Shown: piece after piece, positions 4,525 through 61,633 of the stretch
Numbering within the stretch: the first letter of the stretch is position 1
How the letters are laid out: each line of letters opens with the position of its first letter
NCBI RefSeq assembly: GCF_030409755.1
Contig: NZ_JAUFQE010000002.1
Coordinates: forward strand, 248,001-312,000
Source: Vibrio lentus
GTDB lineage: Bacteria; Pseudomonadota; Gammaproteobacteria; Enterobacterales; Vibrionaceae
Direction of reading: 5' to 3'
DNA length: 64,000 nucleotides
Made by a program: the position numbers and the translations under genes
Notes under the pieces: model-generated
The model's database searches: none
The model's input: the letters and a program-made list of their open reading frames with translations, nothing else
Told to the model about the DNA's origin: nothing

Positions 4525-5031
4525 CTACTTCAGGTCGATGCTGTTCAGTCGTCCCATAAAGATAAGCAGCTCAATCACGTCTTTGTGGGCCTCAAGGAGC
4601 GCTCGTTTGGTTTGGCTATAGGCGGCGAGTCGCCCGTGCTTCCTTATAGAACATACTTTGGTTTTGTATTTGTACTCACCACTTTCAGAGAATACGCGCC
4701 ACTTAGCGATGTAGCATTCATCTCTATGTTCAGGATCTGTCTGAGTAGGGTTTGGTTTGAATACTATTTTAGGTTCTAAACTGTGCGGCAAACGTGTCAT
4801 CAGATAGGGCTCTCTAAGGACTTTTGGCCAAAACTTTCCCCAGAGCTTTCTGCCAAGCTCATCTCTCAACTTGATGGTTTTCTTTAGTGCTTTGTCTTCA
4901 CCCATACGAACAAAACCGACAGAACGATGTAACACCGTATCTTCAGGAGTATGGATGTGGATTTTAAAAGCGGTTTGGCCTTTCGATATAAATCGATAAC
5001 CGGTCGCACCAATTAGATTATTCTGGCTCAT
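4525..5031 (-). CDS. Hypothetical protein with two AP2-like segments
   Basis: A basic 168 aa protein with no signal peptide and no membrane segment. Two stretches look like AP2/integrase-type DNA-binding units. One is about residues 34-66 (SVGFVRMGEDKALKKTIKLR, then DELGRKLWG). The other is near the C terminus (IRKHGRLAAYSQTKRALLEA). Both fit the pattern small/basic strand, Gly, then an Ala/Lys-rich helix ending in Arg or Glu. I remember similar proteins in vibrios carrying AP2-domain labels, but I cannot confirm this here. The gene stands alone between the polyene cluster and the flagellar locus. DNA binding is inferred and a target is not evident. Confidence 0.6.
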   Translation of the reverse strand: MSQNNLIGATGYRFISKGQTAFKIHIHTPEDTVLHRSVGFVRMGEDKALKKTIKLRDELGRKLWGKFWPKVLREPYLMTRLPHSLEPKIVFKPNPTQTDPEHRDECYIAKWRVFSESGEYKYKTKVCSIRKHGRLAAYSQTKRALLEAHKDVIELLIFMGRLNSIDLK

Positions 5032-5103
5032 AGTTTGCTAAATGATGATTATGTTATTAATAAGGTTACGACAAATACGTTAAAACCGAAACTAATCATC
5101 ATG

Positions 5104-5140
5104 AAAAAAATAAAGCCTTAACAAAAGTGCTAAGGCTTTA
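5104..5140 (-). terminator. Terminator downstream of flgT
   Basis: Read on the minus strand, a 10-bp stem (TAAAGCCTTA with TAAGGCTTTA, 10-base loop) is followed by a run of seven T. It lies about 30 bases after the flgT stop and separates flgT from the AP2-like gene. Confidence 0.85.
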
Positions 5141-5170
5141 TTAGAAACTATGAAGCGAGGGTGACGCTAA

Positions 5171-6304
5171 CTACATGATTTTCTGCATCACATCACCAAT
5201 TTGAATGCTTCCAGCCAGGCTAGGTTGATCAATCGTGAGTTCGGCTTCATTTTCATAAACACGAGAAACCGTCAGCGTGATATCACTTTGAGATACCTTG
5301 TTACGCGGTAAACCTCGTTGGTCGATAAACGAACCTGTATGCCACAGTTGCAGTTTGTCACCTTTCTGAACGCCATGCATTCGCCCTAAGTCAATGGTCA
5401 CCGTATTGCCAAATACCGCGGCAACCTCAGGAAGGGTGATCTTACAAGACACTTCAGATTCTAAGTCCAACATAATATTACGACTGACGCGCAGCATCAT
5501 ACTGCCGTAGGTCGATGCCCAGAAGCGAGCGCTGCGGGTGTCCACTTCACTGGTCTTAGCAAATGGCCACTTAGCTACTTCACGATAGCTGCGGTTGTAA
5601 ACCTGATGACCCGTCTTACCGTCAAAGACTTGCATCTCTAACGCAAATTGTCGGTTGATAACATCGTCCTTTAACAGCTTAGATTCAATCGTTGCGGTTA
5701 AGTCGGTAATGTCGCCACCAATGATGTATTGCGCCCCCGTATCTTGAGCAATCATTTTAATGACTTCTGGTTGGCGCTTATCAATGTCGAAGTCGGTCGT
5801 GCCCACTGAAACAAAACTGCGAGACTCTTGCGCTAATTGTCGGTCTACAACATGGCTGAAGTCATCACCAATGTTATAGATTCTTCCCATAACGGCTTGC
5901 TGCGGGGAGGTAACATCAATATTACCGACGAGAAATGTCTTTTTGTATTGGCTCTCATGGCAAGCATTTGCCGAAGGATAGATGTCGATCCTTGCGGTGA
6001 TCATTAAATTGCCACCGCGAGTTTTCTCTTTCTGAACCAAGATGTAGCGAACTTCATGGTTAGTAAACTGAAACTCTTTTTTATTCGAATCTAGATAGGG
6101 CGTGAGGTTGGAGATACTACCAATATCAGCACCTGAGAACTGCACAGCTTTATATACAGCGTCTTCCAGCGCGTGGATGCGTGCGCTTTCTTCCGACGAT
6201 ACGATGGCTGCTGTACCGGTAACTTCATACCAAGAGGCATGAACACTGAAGCTTATGGTTATCAGTGAACTTATTGAAAATAAGTAAGATATTATTTTTT
6301 TCAT
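5171..6304 (-). CDS. flgT: FlgT, flagellar H-ring/T-ring assembly protein
   Basis: FlgT is a periplasmic protein that builds the H ring around the LP ring of the sodium-driven polar flagellum and helps MotX/MotY assemble. The 377 aa product has a cleavable signal peptide (cut probably after VHA, about residue 23). The mature start SWYEVTGTAAIVSSEESARI is typical of FlgT. The N- and middle domains are followed by a C-terminal domain with the GRMHGVQKGDKLQLW segment. Length and sequence agree with Vibrio FlgT. It diverges from flgO. A sigma-54 element at 6402-6419 faces it, giving a leader of roughly 90 bases. Confidence 0.95.
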   Translation of the reverse strand: MKKIISYLFSISSLITISFSVHASWYEVTGTAAIVSSEESARIHALEDAVYKAVQFSGADIGSISNLTPYLDSNKKEFQFTNHEVRYILVQKEKTRGGNLMITARIDIYPSANACHESQYKKTFLVGNIDVTSPQQAVMGRIYNIGDDFSHVVDRQLAQESRSFVSVGTTDFDIDKRQPEVIKMIAQDTGAQYIIGGDITDLTATIESKLLKDDVINRQFALEMQVFDGKTGHQVYNRSYREVAKWPFAKTSEVDTRSARFWASTYGSMMLRVSRNIMLDLESEVSCKITLPEVAAVFGNTVTIDLGRMHGVQKGDKLQLWHTGSFIDQRGLPRNKVSQSDITLTVSRVYENEAELTIDQPSLAGSIQIGDVMQKIM

Positions 6305-6318
6305 CTATTCGTTACCAG

Positions 6319-6336
6319 TTGGGTATAAATATTGCT
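6319..6336 (+). promoter_or_regulatory. Putative sigma-54 promoter for flgO-flgP
   Basis: The sequence TTGGGTATAAATATTGCT has GG and GC ten bases apart and the TTGC -12 box. It points toward flgO with a predicted leader of about 150 bases. The -24 half lacks the CAC of the consensus, so it is weaker than the flgK or flgF sites. Confidence 0.6.
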
Positions 6337-6401
6337 TAACAAATAACTATAAGCTTGAAGCTGACTTAAGTGCGTTTTTCTTAATCTGAACCATTAATGA
6401 A

Positions 6402-6419
6402 AAGCAAAGACTGTTCCAA
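6402..6419 (-). promoter_or_regulatory. Putative sigma-54 promoter for flgT
   Basis: On the minus strand the sequence reads TTGGAACAGTCTTTGCTT: GG and GC are ten bases apart and the -12 box is TTGCTT. The predicted start is near 6391, about 88 bases before the flgT ATG. It faces the flgO promoter at 6319-6336. Confidence 0.68.
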
Positions 6420-6496
6420 CATTGTAATCCATTGAAAAGAATAATGGTGAGAACATATTGGAACAGGTAGCACTAAATATATCTGGAGATAAGAGA

Positions 6497-7132
6497 ATGA
6501 AAAACTGGCTCGTAGTAATGAGTGTCATGTTGATGACATCATGTGCTTATTCGCCCATCTATAACGGCAAGTCTGAGTATTCAGGCAGTCAGTTTATGTT
6601 GATGGACAGCCCTCGTCATACCATGGATTTTTTCGTGGAAAGTATGACTGAAGATCTGATCATTTCGAATACGAGTATTTCAGCGAGAACGCCAATTGCT
6701 ATCACTTCGTTTGTTGACCTACAACATATGGATACAACAAACTGGCTAGGTAATTCAGTTTCAGAAGGCTTCATTCACCAGTTTCAGCGTCGTGGCTTTA
6801 AGGTCGTCGATTTCAAAACAACGGGCTCTATCCAAGTGACTCACCAAGGTGACTTTGCGTTAAGCCGTGATTGGAAAGACCTCGCGCAGGAACAAGACGT
6901 GCAATACGTGCTAACAGGTACGATGCTACGCCAAGAGGGCGGTGTGCTTGTGAATGCTCGCGTGGTGGGTATGCAAACCCGCATTGTGGTGGCTTCTGCG
7001 CAAGGCTTCTTGCCTGCAGACCGTATTGGTCGTGACCTAGATACTCTGAACAGTATTCGAACTCAAGATGGCGTTATCATTCGTTCTGACCCAACGATCA
7101 GTCAGCCTTATACTGTTATTCTTCGCCCTTAG
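6497..7132 (+). CDS. flgO: FlgO, flagellar outer-membrane lipoprotein
   Basis: FlgO is an outer-membrane-associated protein needed for flagellar stability and motility in Vibrio cholerae. The product here is 211 aa with a lipoprotein-type signal and lipobox MTSC (Cys16). The mature domain contains the TPIAITSFVDL and QYVLTGTMLRQEGGVLVNAR blocks of the FlgO family. I chose the ATG at 6497 because it gives the signal peptide directly and follows GGAG at 6484-6487; the frame stays open upstream to 6458, but that extension would bury the signal. flgP follows after 9 bases. Both genes probably share the sigma-54 promoter at 6319-6336. Confidence 0.92.
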   Translation: MKNWLVVMSVMLMTSCAYSPIYNGKSEYSGSQFMLMDSPRHTMDFFVESMTEDLIISNTSISARTPIAITSFVDLQHMDTTNWLGNSVSEGFIHQFQRRGFKVVDFKTTGSIQVTHQGDFALSRDWKDLAQEQDVQYVLTGTMLRQEGGVLVNARVVGMQTRIVVASAQGFLPADRIGRDLDTLNSIRTQDGVIIRSDPTISQPYTVILRP

Positions 7133-7141
7133 GAGTTCGAG

Positions 7142-7573
7142 ATGAAGAAGTTAATATTTGTTGTTGCCGCTTTACTGCTTGTTGGCTGTCAGCCACTGCA
7201 AAACATGAGGCCAGACGACTATTTGGTTGCTGTTGGTTACGCAAGTATCAGTGAGCAATCAGGCCGTAACGACGAAGAAAAACGCATCCGTGCTATGCGA
7301 GCATCCAAAATTGATGCTTACCGTGAACTTGCTGAGCAAGTGTATGGCATGCGAGTGAGTGGCCGAGCTGAATTATCAGATCAGCGCTTGGGTACCGAGC
7401 GAACGACAGGTGCTGTCGACGGCGTTATTCGTGGTGCGGAAGTGGTACGCAGTTACCCTGTCGGTGATAGTTACGTGACGGAGCTTCAGTTAGACATCCG
7501 TAAGATGGAACAACTGCGTAATTACGGTGAAGTTCAGGCTGTACCTGAGAAGAGACAACAAACGCTGTTCTAG
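7142..7573 (+). CDS. flgP: FlgP, flagellar outer-membrane lipoprotein
   Basis: A 143 aa lipoprotein, lipobox LVGC with Cys16. FlgP is an outer-membrane lipoprotein needed for motility in Vibrio, and in epsilonproteobacteria its relative forms the basal disk. The conserved LPP20-like core is visible: YLVAVGYASIS, then the RAMRASKIDAYRELAEQVYG helix and a GVIRGAEVVRSYPVGD strand pair. It lies 9 bases after flgO and is followed by a strong terminator at 7669-7704. Confidence 0.93.
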   Translation: MKKLIFVVAALLLVGCQPLQNMRPDDYLVAVGYASISEQSGRNDEEKRIRAMRASKIDAYRELAEQVYGMRVSGRAELSDQRLGTERTTGAVDGVIRGAEVVRSYPVGDSYVTELQLDIRKMEQLRNYGEVQAVPEKRQQTLF

Positions 7574-7668
7574 TCTTTATGACCATTTAAGTTATATGAC
7601 CGACGAATTGTATAAGTGGCCCTCGCTTTCCAGATGGCAGGGCGGCAATAAATAACGACAGTGAATGT

Positions 7669-7704
7669 AAAAGCGGCAAGTATGAAAATACTTGCCGCTT
7701 TTTT
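7669..7704 (+). terminator. Terminator of flgO-flgP, possibly bidirectional
   Basis: Long stem (AAAGCGGCAAGTAT with ATACTTGCCGCTTT), GAAA tetraloop and a T run. On the other strand the hairpin is followed by TTTTA, so it may also end the flgA-flgM-flgN transcript. Confidence 0.88.
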
Positions 7705-7810
7705 GTATTTACAGGTTGGGTGTGGGATCTAGGCTTGGTATGAAAGATAAGTCGAGTAGTAAGTTAAGGGTTGGTGTTGCGAAAGACGCAAGGTGAATTA
7801 AGGTACTGGC

Positions 7811-7894
7811 TAGAGAATAGAGAATAGAGAATAGAGAATAGAGAATAGAGAATAGAGAATAGAGAATAGAGAATAGAGAATAGAGAATAGAGAA
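7811..7894. repeat. Tandem repeat, 12 perfect copies of TAGAGAA
   Basis: Twelve uninterrupted, identical 7-base units (84 bases) lie 16 bases beyond the flgN stop, in its 3' untranslated region. There are no spacers, so it is a microsatellite and not a CRISPR array. The purity of the array suggests recent slippage, so the copy number probably differs between strains. Confidence 0.97.
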
Positions 7895-7910
7895 GTAGCT
7901 GGTGGCTTGG

Positions 7911-8336
7911 TTAGGCTTTAACGTTGGTGCCAAGTGTAGAAATCGTATGCGTTTGACCACCGGCATTGTAGGTCATGCCGATCTTTCCGTGGCTTTGTTG
8001 CATCATATTGCTGAGTTTTTTAAAGCTGAGGTGTGCTCGATTCAAGGCTTCACCATTAACAAGGTTCGCTTGATGGCAATCGTACACAACAGATTTGATG
8101 GTTTTAACTAACTGAGCCAGATCTGGATTCTCGGTCAGTTCGGAGATATTGCTATGCGCTTCGATTCGTTGATCGGTTGTTCTTAATTGTTCAACTAAGA
8201 CAACTTTCTCTTTAGCGATGCGTTCAATGTCGGTCGATTTTCGGCTAGTAATAGCGGTTTTCTCTGAATCTAATAGATCAGATAGGGCTTTGGCATTTTG
8301 AAGTTGGAAATTAACTAAATCTGCTAGTGCCGCCAT
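7911..8336 (-). CDS. flgN: FlgN, chaperone for FlgK and FlgL
   Basis: A 141 aa, mostly helical cytoplasmic protein. FlgN family members bind the hook-filament junction proteins FlgK and FlgL and deliver them to the export gate. The long N-terminal helices (FQLQNAKALSDLLDSEKTAI, then RIAKEKVVLVEQLR) and the late NPDLAQLVKTI and LNRAHLSFKKL segments fit the family. It is the last gene of the minus-strand unit flgA-flgM-flgN, 65 bases after flgM. The stop lies next to the 7-base tandem array. Confidence 0.88.
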   Translation of the reverse strand: MAALADLVNFQLQNAKALSDLLDSEKTAITSRKSTDIERIAKEKVVLVEQLRTTDQRIEAHSNISELTENPDLAQLVKTIKSVVYDCHQANLVNGEALNRAHLSFKKLSNMMQQSHGKIGMTYNAGGQTHTISTLGTNVKA

Positions 8337-44507: not shown

Positions 44508-45551
44508 GTGACCGATTTATTAAGCCAAGACGAAATTGATGCGCTATTACATGGTGTCGACGATGTTGAAGAAGTTGAAGATGTCTTAGAGTCCGAAAAC
44601 GAGAATGCGGTTAATTTCGACTTCTCATCTCAAGACCGAATCGTTCGTGGTCGAATGCCGACCCTTGAACTTATCAATGAGCGTTTCGCACGTCATATGC
44701 GGATCAGTTTGTTTAATATGTTGCGAAAAACGGCTGAAGTGTCGATCAACGGCGTACAAATGATGAAATTTGGTGAGTACCAAAACACATTGTATGTACC
44801 CACCAGTTTAAACATGGTGCGCTTCCGACCGCTAAAAGGCACGGCGCTAATCACCATGGAAGCTCGTCTTGTTTTCATCTTGGTAGAGAACTTCTTTGGT
44901 GGTGATGGACGCTTCCACGCCAAGATTGAAGGTCGTGAATTTACGCCAACTGAAAGACGAATCATCCAGCTACTGCTTAAAATTGTATTCGAAGACTACA
45001 AAGAAGCTTGGTCTCCCGTGATGGGCGTTGAGTTTGAATACTTGGATTCAGAGGTGAACCCAAGTATGGCCAATATCGTCAGCCCAACAGAAGTGATTGT
45101 GGTGAGTTCGTTCCATATTGAGGTTGATGGCGGCGGCGGTGATTTCCACGTGGTTATGCCTTACTCCATGGTAGAGCCGATTCGTGAATTGCTGGATGCG
45201 GGTGTGCAATCAGACAAGATGGAAACCGACGTTCGTTGGAGTTCGGCGCTGCGTGATGAAATCATGGATGTGCCAGTCAACTTCCGTGTCAATTTGCTCG
45301 AGCAAGATATCTCTTTGCGTGATTTGATGGAACTTCGTCCTGGGGATGTTATCCCGATGAATATGCCAGAACATGCGACGATGTTTGTTGAAGAACTACC
45401 AACCTACCGTGTGAAAATGGGCCGTTCAGGTGAAAAGCTGGCCGTACAGATTTCTGAAAAAATTCAAAGACCGCACGTGGTTAAAACCGATCTCGCTTTC
45501 CTAGGTAAAGACTTGATGTCTGAACTAGAAAACAGCGATGATAACGATTAG
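44508..45551 (+). CDS. fliM: FliM, switch protein that binds CheY
   Basis: A 347 aa C-ring protein. The N-terminal peptide LLSQDEIDALLHG (residues 4-16) is the CheY-binding element. The middle domain has VNFDFSSQDRIVRGRMPTLE, then the GGxG-type loop FFGGDGRF, and binds FliG. The C-terminal domain (LRDLMELRPGDVIPMNMPEH) packs with FliN. The start is GTG at 44508. Peptides like its N terminus also occur in CheZ and, three times, in CheA of this locus. Confidence 0.97.
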   Translation: MTDLLSQDEIDALLHGVDDVEEVEDVLESENENAVNFDFSSQDRIVRGRMPTLELINERFARHMRISLFNMLRKTAEVSINGVQMMKFGEYQNTLYVPTSLNMVRFRPLKGTALITMEARLVFILVENFFGGDGRFHAKIEGREFTPTERRIIQLLLKIVFEDYKEAWSPVMGVEFEYLDSEVNPSMANIVSPTEVIVVSSFHIEVDGGGGDFHVVMPYSMVEPIRELLDAGVQSDKMETDVRWSSALRDEIMDVPVNFRVNLLEQDISLRDLMELRPGDVIPMNMPEHATMFVEELPTYRVKMGRSGEKLAVQISEKIQRPHVVKTDLAFLGKDLMSELENSDDND

Positions 45552-55141: not shown

Positions 55142-55171
55142 CAACACTGGTTTTATTCAGTGGAGGCTAAT

Positions 55172-55552
55172 TTGAACAAAAACATGAAAATTCTCATTGT
55201 TGACGACTTTTCAACGATGCGCCGAATTGTTAAAAACCTACTACGCGATTTAGGTTTCAACAACACTCAAGAAGCAGACGATGGCTTGACCGCGTTACCA
55301 ATGCTGAAAAAAGGCGAATTTGATTTCGTGGTAACTGACTGGAACATGCCTGGTATGCAAGGTATTGACCTGTTAAAACACGTTCGTGCAGACGCAGAAC
55401 TTAAGCACCTTCCAGTGCTTATGATCACGGCAGAAGCGAAACGTGAACAGATCATCGAAGCTGCTCAAGCGGGTGTTAATGGTTACATTGTGAAGCCTTT
55501 CACAGCGGCAACTCTGAAAGAGAAACTTGATAAGATTTTTGATCGCTTATAA
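55172..55552 (+). CDS. cheY: CheY, chemotaxis response regulator
   Basis: A single-domain receiver of 126 aa from the chosen start. Acidic pair in LIVDDFS, phospho-acceptor Asp56 in VVTDWNMPG, Thr in MITAEAK and Lys in IVKPF. CheY-P binds FliM and reverses the motor. Start choice: GGAGG at 55162-55166 sits 5 bases before TTG 55172, so this is my start. A longer reading from GTG 55160 would contain that site (130 aa, [10 protein letters not shown]); ATG 55184 is a further option. The paralogue here corresponds to V. cholerae CheY3 by context. Confidence 0.93.
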
Positions 55553-55666: not shown

Positions 55667-56398
55667 ATGATTTCATTAGAACAAGCAAAAAAATTAGTAG
55701 AGCTGCTTGAAAACGACGAGCAGCAAGGTGCTGATTCTCTTGTTAGAAGCATTTACGAAGATAATTTTAGTCTTCAAGACAATCCAATGCTTCAAGAAAT
55801 AGGAAGTCTGACTCGCGACCTCCATGACTCTTTGGCTCAATTCAATTTCGATGAACGCATCAGCGTTATCGCAAATGATGAAATCCCTGATGCTAGGGAT
55901 CGCCTTCAATATGTCATTGATAAAACGGAAGTTGCAGCAAACAAGACGATGGACGCAGTCGATCGTTGTATGCCAATAGCAGGCAACCTACACGAGTGTT
56001 TACTTCAAGTAAGGCCTCAATGGAATGAACTGATGCATGGCCGCATTGAGCTGGCACAATTTAAAGCTTTATGTCACCGCATTGATGGATTACTTGTCCA
56101 AGTAGAAGGCGATAGTACTGAACTACGTGGACAACTGACTGAAATCTTGATGGCTCAGGATTTCCAAGATTTAACTGGGCAGATCATTAGCAAAGTTATT
56201 ACCTTGGTAAATGAGGTTGAAGGACGTTTGGTAGAGATTCTCACGGTATTCGGTGCGAATCAGATAGAGCCAACTCCAGAGAAAGAGAAGAAAGCATCTA
56301 TTGCTCCTGAGGGTCCAATCATGAACCCAGAAGCGCGCGAAGACGCTGTGGCATCTCAAGATGAAGTCGACGATTTGTTATCCAGTCTTGGATTTTAA
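55667..56398 (+). CDS. cheZ: CheZ, CheY-P phosphatase
   Basis: A 243 aa helical protein that dephosphorylates CheY-P. The long helical hairpin contains the catalytic Gln in QDFQDLTGQIISKVI (about residue 168). The C-terminal CheY-binding peptide is SQDEVDDLLSSLGF. A Glu/Pro-rich linker joins the two. The ATG at 55667 (MISLEQAKKL) is the family start; the frame is open to 55607 without support. It is followed by cheA after 9 bases. Confidence 0.95.
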   Translation: MISLEQAKKLVELLENDEQQGADSLVRSIYEDNFSLQDNPMLQEIGSLTRDLHDSLAQFNFDERISVIANDEIPDARDRLQYVIDKTEVAANKTMDAVDRCMPIAGNLHECLLQVRPQWNELMHGRIELAQFKALCHRIDGLLVQVEGDSTELRGQLTEILMAQDFQDLTGQIISKVITLVNEVEGRLVEILTVFGANQIEPTPEKEKKASIAPEGPIMNPEAREDAVASQDEVDDLLSSLGF

Positions 56399-56407
56399 AG
56401 GTAACGT

Positions 56408-58576
56408 ATGAGCTACGATTTAGACGAAGATATTCTTCAGGACTTTTTAGTCGAAGCAGGAGAGATACTTGAACTCCTATCAGAACAATTGGTAGAGCTT
56501 GAGAATAACCCTGACGACAAAGACCTATTAAATGCTATTTTCCGTGGTTTCCATACAGTAAAAGGTGGTGCTGGTTTCCTAGCATTGACTGAGCTGGTGG
56601 ATACTTGTCATGGTGCTGAGAATGTGTTCGACATTCTAAGAAATGGCCAACGCAGCGTAACATCAGGTTTGATGGACACGATGCTACAGGCTCTCGATAC
56701 AGTTAATGTACAGTTTCGAGCCGTGCAAGATCAGGAAGCTTTAGTACCCGCTGACCAATCTTTATTGGATGAACTTCATCGTCTCTGCAAACCAGAGGCT
56801 GCTGATGAAGTCGCGCCAGCACCTGTTATCCCTGAACCTATTGTTGCTGCGCCTGAGCCTGTTGTAGAAAGCTCTAGTATCAGTGCATCTTCAGTGGATG
56901 ATATCTCTGAAGATGAGTTTGAACGCCTACTTGATGAACTTCATGGTAAAGGCGGCTCACCAACAGCAGCTTCTGCACCAACTCCGCCGCCAGCGCCCGC
57001 TGCACCTCAGCCAGTTGCTGACAGTGGTGATATTACTGATGACGAATTTGAAAAGTTATTAGATGAGCTGCACGGTGCCGGTAAGAGTCCGACAGCGGCA
57101 AGTTCAACGCCTCCACCGCCACCACCTCCTGTTGCTGCTCCAGTTTCGGCGATGTCTGAAGGCGATGACCTGATGACGGACGAAGAGTTTGAGAAGTTAC
57201 TTGATCAGTTACATGGTTCAGGTAATGGCCCGTCGATTGAAGAGCTAGATGCTGCAACTAAGCCTGCTGATGTAAAAGCTGCTTCTGTTGCACCTGCACC
57301 ACAAGTCGCGCCTAAGCCACAGCCAGCAACTCCTGCTGTTGCGAAACCTGCTGCTAAAGCTGAACCTAAGCCGAATGTTCCAGCTAAGAAGCAACAAGCA
57401 GAAGCAACGGTTCGTGTTGATACATCAACTCTCGATACCATCATGAACATGGTGGGTGAGTTGGTATTGGTTCGTAACCGACTGGTGAGTTTAGGCTTAA
57501 ACAGCAACGACGAAGAAATGGCGAAAGCTGTATCGAATTTAGACGTTGTTACCGCAGATCTTCAAGGCGCGGTAATGAAGACTCGTATGCAGCCGATCAA
57601 GAAAGTTTTTGGTCGTTTCCCACGAGTTGTCCGCGACCTTGCTCGTAGTTTGAAGAAAGACATTGTTCTTGAAATGCGCGGTGAAGAAACGGATCTTGAT
57701 AAGAATTTAGTAGAAGCACTTGCCGATCCACTGATTCACTTAGTGAGAAACTCTGTGGACCACGGTATTGAGATGCCTGAAGCTCGTATTGCGGCTGGCA
57801 AATCACAAACAGGTAAAGTGATCCTGTCTGCCTCGCAAGAAGGTGACCATATTGAGTTGGCTATCGTTGATGACGGTGGCGGTATGGACCCTGATAAGCT
57901 TCGTGCTATTGCGGTTAAACGTGGTCTGATGGACGAAGACGCAGCGTCTCGCTTATCGAACAAAGAGTGTTTCAATCTTATTTTTGCACCTGGCTTCTCA
58001 AGCAAAGAGCAAATTTCAGATATCTCTGGCCGTGGTGTAGGTATGGACGTTGTGAAAACAGCGATCAATACACTGAATGGCTCGATCGATATCGATTCTG
58101 AAATGGGTCAAGGCACCAAGATTACGATCAAGGTTCCACTGACGCTTGCGATTCTACCAACCTTGATGGTCGGTGTTGCGGGTCACCCATTCGCATTGCC
58201 ATTGGCTTCTGTGAACGAAATTTTCCACTTAGACCTCAGCCGTACTAACGTGGTTGATGGCCAGTTGACTATCATCGTTCGTGATAAATCTATCCCGTTG
58301 TTCTACTTGCAAAATTGGCTTGCACCAAAAGCCGGTATTGTTGAACTACGCAAAGGACATGGTCACGTTGTTATCGTTCAGCTTGGCAGCCAAAGAGTTG
58401 GTTTTGTTGTCGATACGCTGATTGGCCAAGAAGAAGTCGTTATCAAGCCACTTGATAAGTTGTTGCAAGGTACGCCAGGTATGGCAGGCGCGACAATTAC
58501 AAGTGATGGACACATTGCATTGATTCTCGATGTGCCTGACTTGTTGAAGCAGTACGCTGCAGCATCAAGAATTTAA
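56408..58576 (+). CDS. cheA: CheA, chemotaxis histidine kinase without a recognisable P2 domain
   Basis: A 722 aa kinase. P1 (residues 1-115) has the phospho-acceptor His49 in [14 protein letters not shown] Pro/Ala-rich linker (about 125-330) then replaces a normal P2 domain. It contains three copies of a peptide (residues 165-180, 208-223, 254-270) like [16 protein letters not shown]3 starts near 335 ([20 protein letters not shown]), P4 has [18 protein letters not shown] and GRGVGMDVV, and P5 is CheW-like ([20 protein letters not shown]). The linker matches the region in which vibrio CheA interacts with ParP/ParC (LID domain). Confidence 0.96.
56900..57217 (+). repeat. Three spaced peptide repeats in the CheA linker
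   Basis: The coding repeats lie at 56900-56947, 57029-57076 and 57167-57217. Each encodes (I/M)-(S/T)-(D/E)-(D/E)-E-F-E-(R/K)-L-L-D-(E/Q)-L-H-G. The peptides are kept more closely than the DNA, and the Pro-rich spacers between them are 27-30 residues long. They resemble the CheY-binding peptides of FliM and CheZ. Confidence 0.85.
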
Positions 58577-59724: not shown

Positions 59725-60493
59725 ATGATTGTTTGGAGTGTTGCAAACCAAAAAGGTGGTGTTGGTAAAACAACCACGACAGTGACCTTGGCAGGCTTAC
59801 TTGCCTTGAAAGGGCACCGTGTTCTATTGGTTGATACCGATCCACATGCATCACTAACCACTTATCTGGGTTACGACTCAGATACAGTGGAGTCGAGTTT
59901 GTTTGATCTGTTTCAGTTGCGTGAGTTTAATGCTCAGACGGTAAGACCGTTGCTGTTACAAACGGAAGTCGAAGGCATCGATATTATCCCTGCACATATG
60001 TCGCTCGCGACATTAGACCGTGTAATGGGTAATCGCAGTGGAATGGGGTTAATTTTAAAGCGTGCGCTTGCCGCTTTGAAAGACGACTATGATTATGTAC
60101 TGATCGATTGTCCGCCGATTCTTGGCGTGATGATGGTCAACGCATTGGCAGCCAGTGATCGTATCTTGATCCCAGTCCAGACTGAGTTTTTAGCAATGAA
60201 AGGGCTGGAGCGCATGATCCGCACTCTGACCATCATGCAAAAATCTCGAAAAACACCGTTTAAAGTGACGGTGGTACCGACGATGTATGACAAGCGAACC
60301 AAAGCTTCATTACAGACGTTAACTCAGCTGAAAGAAGATTATCCAAATCAAGTTTGGGCGTCTGCTGTCCCTATTGACACTAAGTTTAGAGATGCAAGCC
60401 TAAAGCGCTTACCAGCATCTCATTTTGCATCGGGTAGTCGTGGTGTATTTGCTTACAAACAGCTGCTTATTTATCTCGAAAGGCTGGCGATAA

Positions 60494-60507
<14 letters not shown>
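59725..60507 (+). CDS. parC: ParC, ParA-like ATPase for polar chemotaxis arrays
   Basis: A 260 aa ParA/MinD-type ATPase. The deviant Walker A is NQKGGVGKTTTT (Lys10 and Lys15), with LVDTDPHAS and VLIDCPPILG as further ATPase motifs. In V. cholerae and V. parahaemolyticus the ParA-like protein at this position, ParC, positions chemotaxis arrays at the pole with ParP. It lies inside the chemotaxis operon and overlaps parP by 14 bases, so the two are co-translated. It is not a chromosome-segregation ParA: no parB gene or parS-like site is near. Confidence 0.93.

Positions 60508-61633
<1,126 letters not shown>

Follow-up and report, generated by a model that had tools for sequence, protein, structure and literature searches.

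The histidine kinase CheA is usually drawn with a P2 domain between P1 and P3. Roughly 52% of CheAs are reported to be P2-less and to carry an unstructured region instead (Berry et al. 2023, PMC10782961), and how these kinases, about half of all, find CheY is the question addressed here. Two described systems bear on it. In Vibrio cholerae, FliM sits on the alpha4-beta5-alpha5 face of CheY3, and CheZ and FliM share one CheY face (PMC3774744). The AIF domain of ParP binds a CheA region termed LID, which was placed between P2 and P3 of V. cholerae CheA and stated to occur only together with ParC/ParP (PMC7534058, PMC5706961). We analyzed a 64,000-nucleotide stretch of Vibrio lentus DNA (hereafter the window), whose CheA belongs among the P2-less kinases of Berry et al. 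2023 (PMC10782961). The main text of that survey contains neither 'motif' nor 'FliM', and the linker motif described below is an addition to it. The absence of P2 from half of CheAs is thus already known (PMC10782961). The motif was not found described in the open-licence literature, motif strings included, and is apparently new, although Ringgaard 2014 (PNAS) or 2018 may print it. We propose, from sequence comparison, that FliM-like CheY-docking peptides probably replace P2 in this CheA and its gammaproteobacterial relatives.

Gene setting and CheA architecture

The flagellar/chemotaxis region of the window has the gene order fliM, cheY, cheZ, cheA, cheB, parC, parP, cheW, with other genes separating fliM from cheY. 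The genes central to the comparison are:

55160..55552, + strand: cheY, the proposed CheA partner; top PDB match V. cholerae CheY3 (3to5)
56408..58576, + strand: cheA, 722 aa, ORF uninterrupted
59725..60507, + strand: parC-like ATPase gene; ParA/MinD-type NCBIfam matches, every one below cut-off, the name ParC coming from its position next to parP
60494..61633, + strand: parP-like gene, whose product has an N-terminal motif, a Pro/Glu-repeat linker and a C-terminal CheW-like (AIF) domain; rival partner of the CheA linker

By sequence match, the CheY is a close homologue of V. cholerae CheY3, and cheA is the only gene of the genome with an H-kinase_dim match. The parP-like gene was named from its resemblance to the published ParP layout; its long Pro-Glu repeat follows a conserved ALxxYxxxLL-like motif at the N-terminus, common to ParPs of other genera. 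Pfam finds Hpt, H-kinase_dim, HATPase_c and CheW in order in the window's CheA, as in a CheA histidine kinase, and all four are present in 46/46 related CheAs, window included. The protein divides as follows:

56429..56701, + strand: P1 / Hpt domain, residues 8-98 (Pfam PF01627), phosphoacceptor region FHTVKGG
56798..57403, + strand: Pro/Ala-rich P1-P3 linker, residues 131-332, in the usual place of P2; no P2 model at E<=1
56900..56947, + strand: motif copy 1, residues 165-180, 16-residue repeat
57029..57076, + strand: motif copy 2, residues 208-223, 16-residue repeat
57170..57217, + strand: motif copy 3, residues 255-270, 16-residue repeat
57404..58552, + strand: P3, P4 and P5 (Pfam: H-kinase_dim 333-392, HATPase_c 440-579, CheW-like 586-715)

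A first-pass annotation, made from the letters and open reading frames alone, had claimed three repeats in a Pro/Ala-rich CheA linker. Reading the ORF bears this out on both counts: the repeats lie at the residues given above, and Ala makes up 18% and Pro 17% of residues 131-332. Across the related CheA linkers, the motif has the consensus D-E-I-[ST]-[DE]-[DE]-E-F-E-x-L-L-D-x-L-H-G and is of the acidic amphipathic-helix type. An NCBIfam search yielded no added information on the linker.

Likeness of the linker motif to FliM and CheZ

In FliM, the N-terminal peptide forms an amphipathic helix of acidic character on a flexible tail, a description that also fits the CheA motif. FliM of the window starts at 44508 with (M)TDLLSQDEIDALLHG, and CheZ terminates in ASQDEVDDLLSSLGF; both ends match those given in the first-pass annotation. 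Their CheY-binding-type peptides are:

44517..44555, + strand: FliM N-terminal peptide LLSQDEIDALLHG
56354..56395, + strand: CheZ C-terminal peptide SQDEVDDLLSSLGF, at the CheZ C-terminus

The FliM N-terminal CheY-binding peptide (complexes 1F4V, 1U8T) and the CheA motif have the pattern [ILM]-[ST]-x-[DE]-E-[IVF]-[DE]-x-L-L in common. The CheA motif differs in its Phe for Ile/Val at a fixed hydrophobic position, an Asp after LL and an extra LHG, as well as in being present in several copies and located inside the kinase. With the CheY-binding helix of CheZ, it shares the spacing [DE]-[DE]-[VF]-[DE]-x-L-L-x-x-L, but that helix is single, C-terminal and without EFE. Among related loci, 63/69 FliMs show LSx[DE]E[IVL][DE]xL[LIM] within 120 residues of the beginning of the open frame, most frequently as LSQDEIDALLHG (31); of 85 related CheZs, 26 end in GQDEVDDLLSSLGF and 16 in GQDDVDDLLSSLGF, the two most frequent endings.

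The annotation had likened the motifs to both proteins. The resemblance to the CheY-binding end of FliM holds beyond chance: when each of 96 motif-bearing CheAs was scanned end to end with a profile built from FliM only, the top-scoring site fell on a motif copy in 93 of them, against an expectation of 0.34. In the window's CheA, the top three of 713 sites start at residues 166, 209 and 256 (13.6, 9.6 and 9.0 bits), the third copy being closely followed by a fourth-best site outside the motifs (start 275, 8.7 bits). Related linkers reached a median FliM-profile score of 13.45, compared with 5.3 +/- 2.5 in 2100 shuffles, and the 300 that scored best among 7221 ORFs of the loci were FliM (69), CheZ (83), CheA (75) and others (73). 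The likeness to CheZ taken alone is weaker. The CheZ-only profile recognised the CheA motif partly: its best site was a motif copy in 37/96 proteins, its median linker score was 2.5 versus -0.5 +/- 3.7 for shuffles, and in the window's CheA it did not single out the motifs, the best copy ranking third. In three of the related loci, small proteins (168-179 aa), which may be FliN, likewise have a FliM-like peptide close to the N-terminal end (ANQDDIDALL, ISQDDVDSLM).

Two artefactual origins of the motif were considered and rejected. Chance is countered by the whole-genome profile search, by the FliM-profile ranking and by 200 composition-preserving shuffles of each related linker, in which a looser motif pattern gave 0.000-0.010 matches per shuffled linker. 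Over the whole 5.9 Mb genome (E <= 10), a motif profile made of 36 copies from other genomes, picked from 60 of 238 distinct copies with the more degenerate ones omitted, hit three sites, exactly the CheA copies. A recent tandem DNA duplication is at odds with the low base identity between the window's copies (34-37 of 54 bases over 18 codons each) and with the 4-9 synonymous changes among 10-14 same-residue codons. With differences at so many synonymous positions, the copies must be of long standing, and selection on the protein maintains them.

Conservation and distribution

In degree of conservation, the motif positions come close to P1, although the linker around them drifts. Across 46 related CheAs (alignment A3, window included), identity to the window averaged 0.68 in the motifs, 0.23 in the other linker and 0.69 in P1; the corresponding values in 29 same-genus proteins, window included, were 0.94, 0.56 and 0.95. 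The same-genus set comprises the best-scoring 29 loci besides the window's from a family search of 121 genomes; one of these loci was dropped when no CheA frame was recognised in it. Random loss of motifs in close relatives, a possibility raised in the annotation, was looked for: all same-genus relatives counted retain three copies, the number being exactly three in 29/29 proteins, window included. Every position that is invariant in a 37-row alignment of P1 and linker, between P1 and the V-R-V that opens P3, falls within a motif.

A further stretch, GPSx[ED]ELxxAT[KR]P, follows copy 3 (57218-57274 in the window) in 23/29 same-genus proteins. It recurs in 4/46 rows of A3 (the window, two Vibrio and one Photobacterium, not Salinivibrio L200 or Photobacterium L205) and is a candidate lineage-specific contact.

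The class-wide search covered 274 genomes and gave matches in 221; one locus was taken from each of 112 genomes among the matches listed. These gave 104 CheAs with at least 450 bits to the window's CheA, 96 of them complete and 8 incomplete. At least one motif copy was present in 95 of the 96 complete linkers: one copy in 9, two in 36, three in 41, four in 8 and eight in 1. The single exception has degenerate copies only. The eight-copy CheA (locus L144, genome G033, 4995-8213) has a linker of ~556 residues. In L119 (genome G192), the three copies keep ITDDEFEALL and end in NQRD instead of DxLHG; no ParP was found there.

Among named genomes, sampled as the best 80 loci of a longer list, 46 CheAs reached at least 450 bits, 45 of them complete, and 43 of these contained copies; the two complete proteins without copies are from Campylobacterota. 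Carriers include Vibrio, Photobacterium, Salinivibrio, Shewanella, Alteromonas, Moritella, Marinobacter, Pseudomonas, Stutzerimonas, Stenotrophomonas, Dyella and Acidithiobacillus. Of the 34 named loci at 300-450 bits, 12 had recognised linker ends and the remaining 22 were dropped; copies were present in 3 (L221, L224, L228) and absent from 9, namely other phyla and a degenerate Lysobacter copy. The motif thus marks a real, widespread variant of CheA architecture. A record labelled as a Klebsiella pneumoniae MAG holds a motif-type CheA with two copies and a ParC-like gene, and is probably a misassigned contig.

The Campylobacterota linkers L226 and L229 (Helicobacter) and L230 and L235 (Sulfuricurvum) are without EFExLLD and have a FliM-like repeat, DYxxxSxxxVEAEIxRL, instead, once in the Helicobacter and twice in the Sulfuricurvum CheA linkers. 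FliMs of these genomes start ILSQEEIDALL. The repeat is possibly an independent solution, judging by its letters.

ParP and the use of the motif copies

Experiments have established ParP as the partner of this part of CheA, and ParP binding is the chief rival of CheY docking. With no P2 found, LID should overlap the linker of this CheA. Both the LID of vibrios and the motif region lie between P1 and P3, in many of the same genomes. Two readings give ParP a role, and their likelihoods are not meant to add up to certainty with that of docking, since the first overlaps both the CheY-docking proposal and the second.

In the first, CheY and ParP (or CheB, CheV) share the copies or split them among themselves, with array tethering and phosphotransfer in competition. 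We regard this as somewhat unlikely. Each of the three copies can be told apart from the others and is retained in the same-genus set, where the conserved GPSxEELxxATKP after copy 3 (23/29 proteins) is likewise consistent with a division of labour. A fixed division is harder to reconcile with related genomes that have ParP and vary from one to eight copies.

In the second, the motifs are LID itself, bound by the CheW-like AIF domain of ParP, and act in localisation to the pole and in stability of the array rather than in docking CheY. Several points agree with it: the published binding of a CheA region by ParP-AIF, found only with ParC/ParP (PMC7534058, PMC5706961); the adjacency of parC and parP to cheA in the window; a ParP match in 61/104 class loci and 33/46 named loci, some others ending at contig edges; and the expected overlap of LID with a linker whose invariant residues lie only in the motifs. 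A ParP profile was run on 26 genomes, namely 6 controls, in all of which ParP was found, and 20 lacking a visible ParP next to cheA. Five of the 20 had no match at E<=1e-3 (G001, G192, Stenotrophomonas, Lysobacter and Acidithiobacillus). Among the other 15, 6 had only matches below 30 bits, a level reached by CheW-sized proteins in ParP-bearing genomes, and 9 had matches of 44-183 bits, mostly on another contig.

The five genomes without a detected ParP contain four copies (L161), three with the different end (L119), two (L221), one (L228) and one degenerate copy (L253); a ParC-like gene is present in the L221 and L253 loci despite no ParP being found. As 4/5 of these genomes keep the motif, it appears less strictly tied to ParP than LID reportedly is. 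Unlike LID as published, the motif also occurs where no ParP is detected, in a comparison made at the level of the region. The first-pass annotation had offered localisation through ParP as its own alternative. As the sole function this is unlikely, given genomes that retain four, three, two and one copies (though a diverged ParP is possible there) and a likeness to FliM that it leaves unexplained; ParP could still use the motif where it is present. Eleven Pseudomonas/Stutzerimonas loci have ParC-/ParP-like genes near cheA; P. aeruginosa is not among them, and a 2025 paper describes P. aeruginosa as having no related genes (PMC12410967).

Absence of P2 and structure models

The annotation had also claimed that P2 is missing between P1 and P3, and the searches agree. 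No P2 or CheY-binding model matched the window's CheA in Pfam at E up to 1, and none matched the 46 related motif-type CheAs at E<=0.01 (0/46). In a PDB search with a P1+linker profile, alignments to known CheAs were confined to P1 and the first part of the linker (to residue 179); what remained were weak matches to the unrelated ZapA, STI1-domain and EF-hand proteins (E 0.15-1.1, one of each). The matches listed by VIA-align were CheY chains and one P1 chain, and so bear on neither presence nor absence of a fold in the linker. In the AlphaFold model of P1 and linker of a Photobacterium relative (not the window's own protein), helices run to residue 136 and are followed by three isolated motif helices without strands, the remaining linker being mostly below pLDDT 50. 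A hidden P2 was rejected on these three lines of evidence.

Motif region and P2 occupy the same P1-P3 place and have the same presumed CheY-docking job near phospho-P1. Unlike the P2 / CheY-binding domains (PF07194, PF09078), the CheA motifs are short linear motifs, present as repeats in a linker for which disorder is predicted, with no sequence match to either model. Pfam found the CheY-binding domain PF09078 in 2/274 class genomes, P2 PF07194 in 1/274 and PF09078 in 4/76 genomes of one order, one of them already counted; because Pfam misses many P2 domains (PMC10782961), these counts are lower bounds. CheAs with a Pfam P2 contained no motif copies (0/6). The suggested link between the motif and loss of P2 thus stands insofar as the two never occur together in one protein, but this complementarity is confounded with CheA class: P2-bearing and motif-bearing CheAs belong to different classes and so represent one or few evolutionary events, not many independent ones.

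CheY was modelled with the motif region, as the annotation had suggested, using P1 and linker of the Photobacterium CheA and its own CheY joined into one chain through an out-of-frame stretch. CheY-dependent ordering of the motifs did not appear: pLDDT (10-residue block means) was ~78, 75 and 84 without CheY and slightly lower, ~72, 66 and 81, with it. Fused chains are a poor test and contacts were not readable, so this contrast neither shows nor excludes docking.

The models bear on two further explanations. The motif could be the second half of a SHOCT motif, forming mini-domains through which CheA linkers self-associate, in keeping with the oligomerisation role of SHOCT. PF09851 matches 31/46 CheAs at E<=0.01 (best 2.3e-9), and AlphaFold shows only single short helices at the motifs. 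We consider it highly improbable all the same: the match in the window is below the curated cut-off (21.4 vs 27 bits) and spans positions 11-27 of 28, 17/28 model positions in all, so that it lacks the first helix. A hidden, highly diverged P2 fold with incidental motifs is scarcely credible, even though HMMER generally finds P2 poorly (PMC10782961), given 46/46 CheAs with no P2 match, a relative's model without strands and a linker that is Pro/Ala-rich and poorly conserved.

Proposed mechanism and implications

The proposal that peptides replace P2 is favoured by the likeness to FliM, the conservation of the motifs, the absence of P2, the distribution and the persistence where no ParP was found. 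Usually one to four motifs in a flexible linker (at most eight, here three) would stand in for the folded P2. Copying the FliM N-terminal peptide, and the CheZ end less closely, they would dock CheY on alpha4-beta5-alpha5 beside phospho-P1 and raise the local CheY concentration. Phospho-CheY would then leave the linker and bind FliM or CheZ, whose sites compete for it, placing kinase, motor and phosphatase in direct competition, with the kinase as a third user of the same peptide code. CheY binding, the face used, the role in phosphotransfer, multivalency and competition are what we infer from the letters and their comparison.

A broader extension is more tentative, though a realistic possibility: gammaproteobacterial CheAs of the type found in Vibrio, Shewanella, Pseudomonas, Alteromonas, Marinobacter and others might capture CheY by a variable number of FliM mimics, with copy number tuning the signal and Campylobacterota perhaps in parallel (S-x-x-E-V-E-A-E-I-x-R-L).

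If the motifs bind ParP instead, they would define LID at residue level, apparently as an element that outlives ParP. If they dock CheY, the CheAs of Vibrio and Pseudomonas are currently drawn with the wrong middle domain, and kinase and motor would be direct competitors for CheY via one peptide code.
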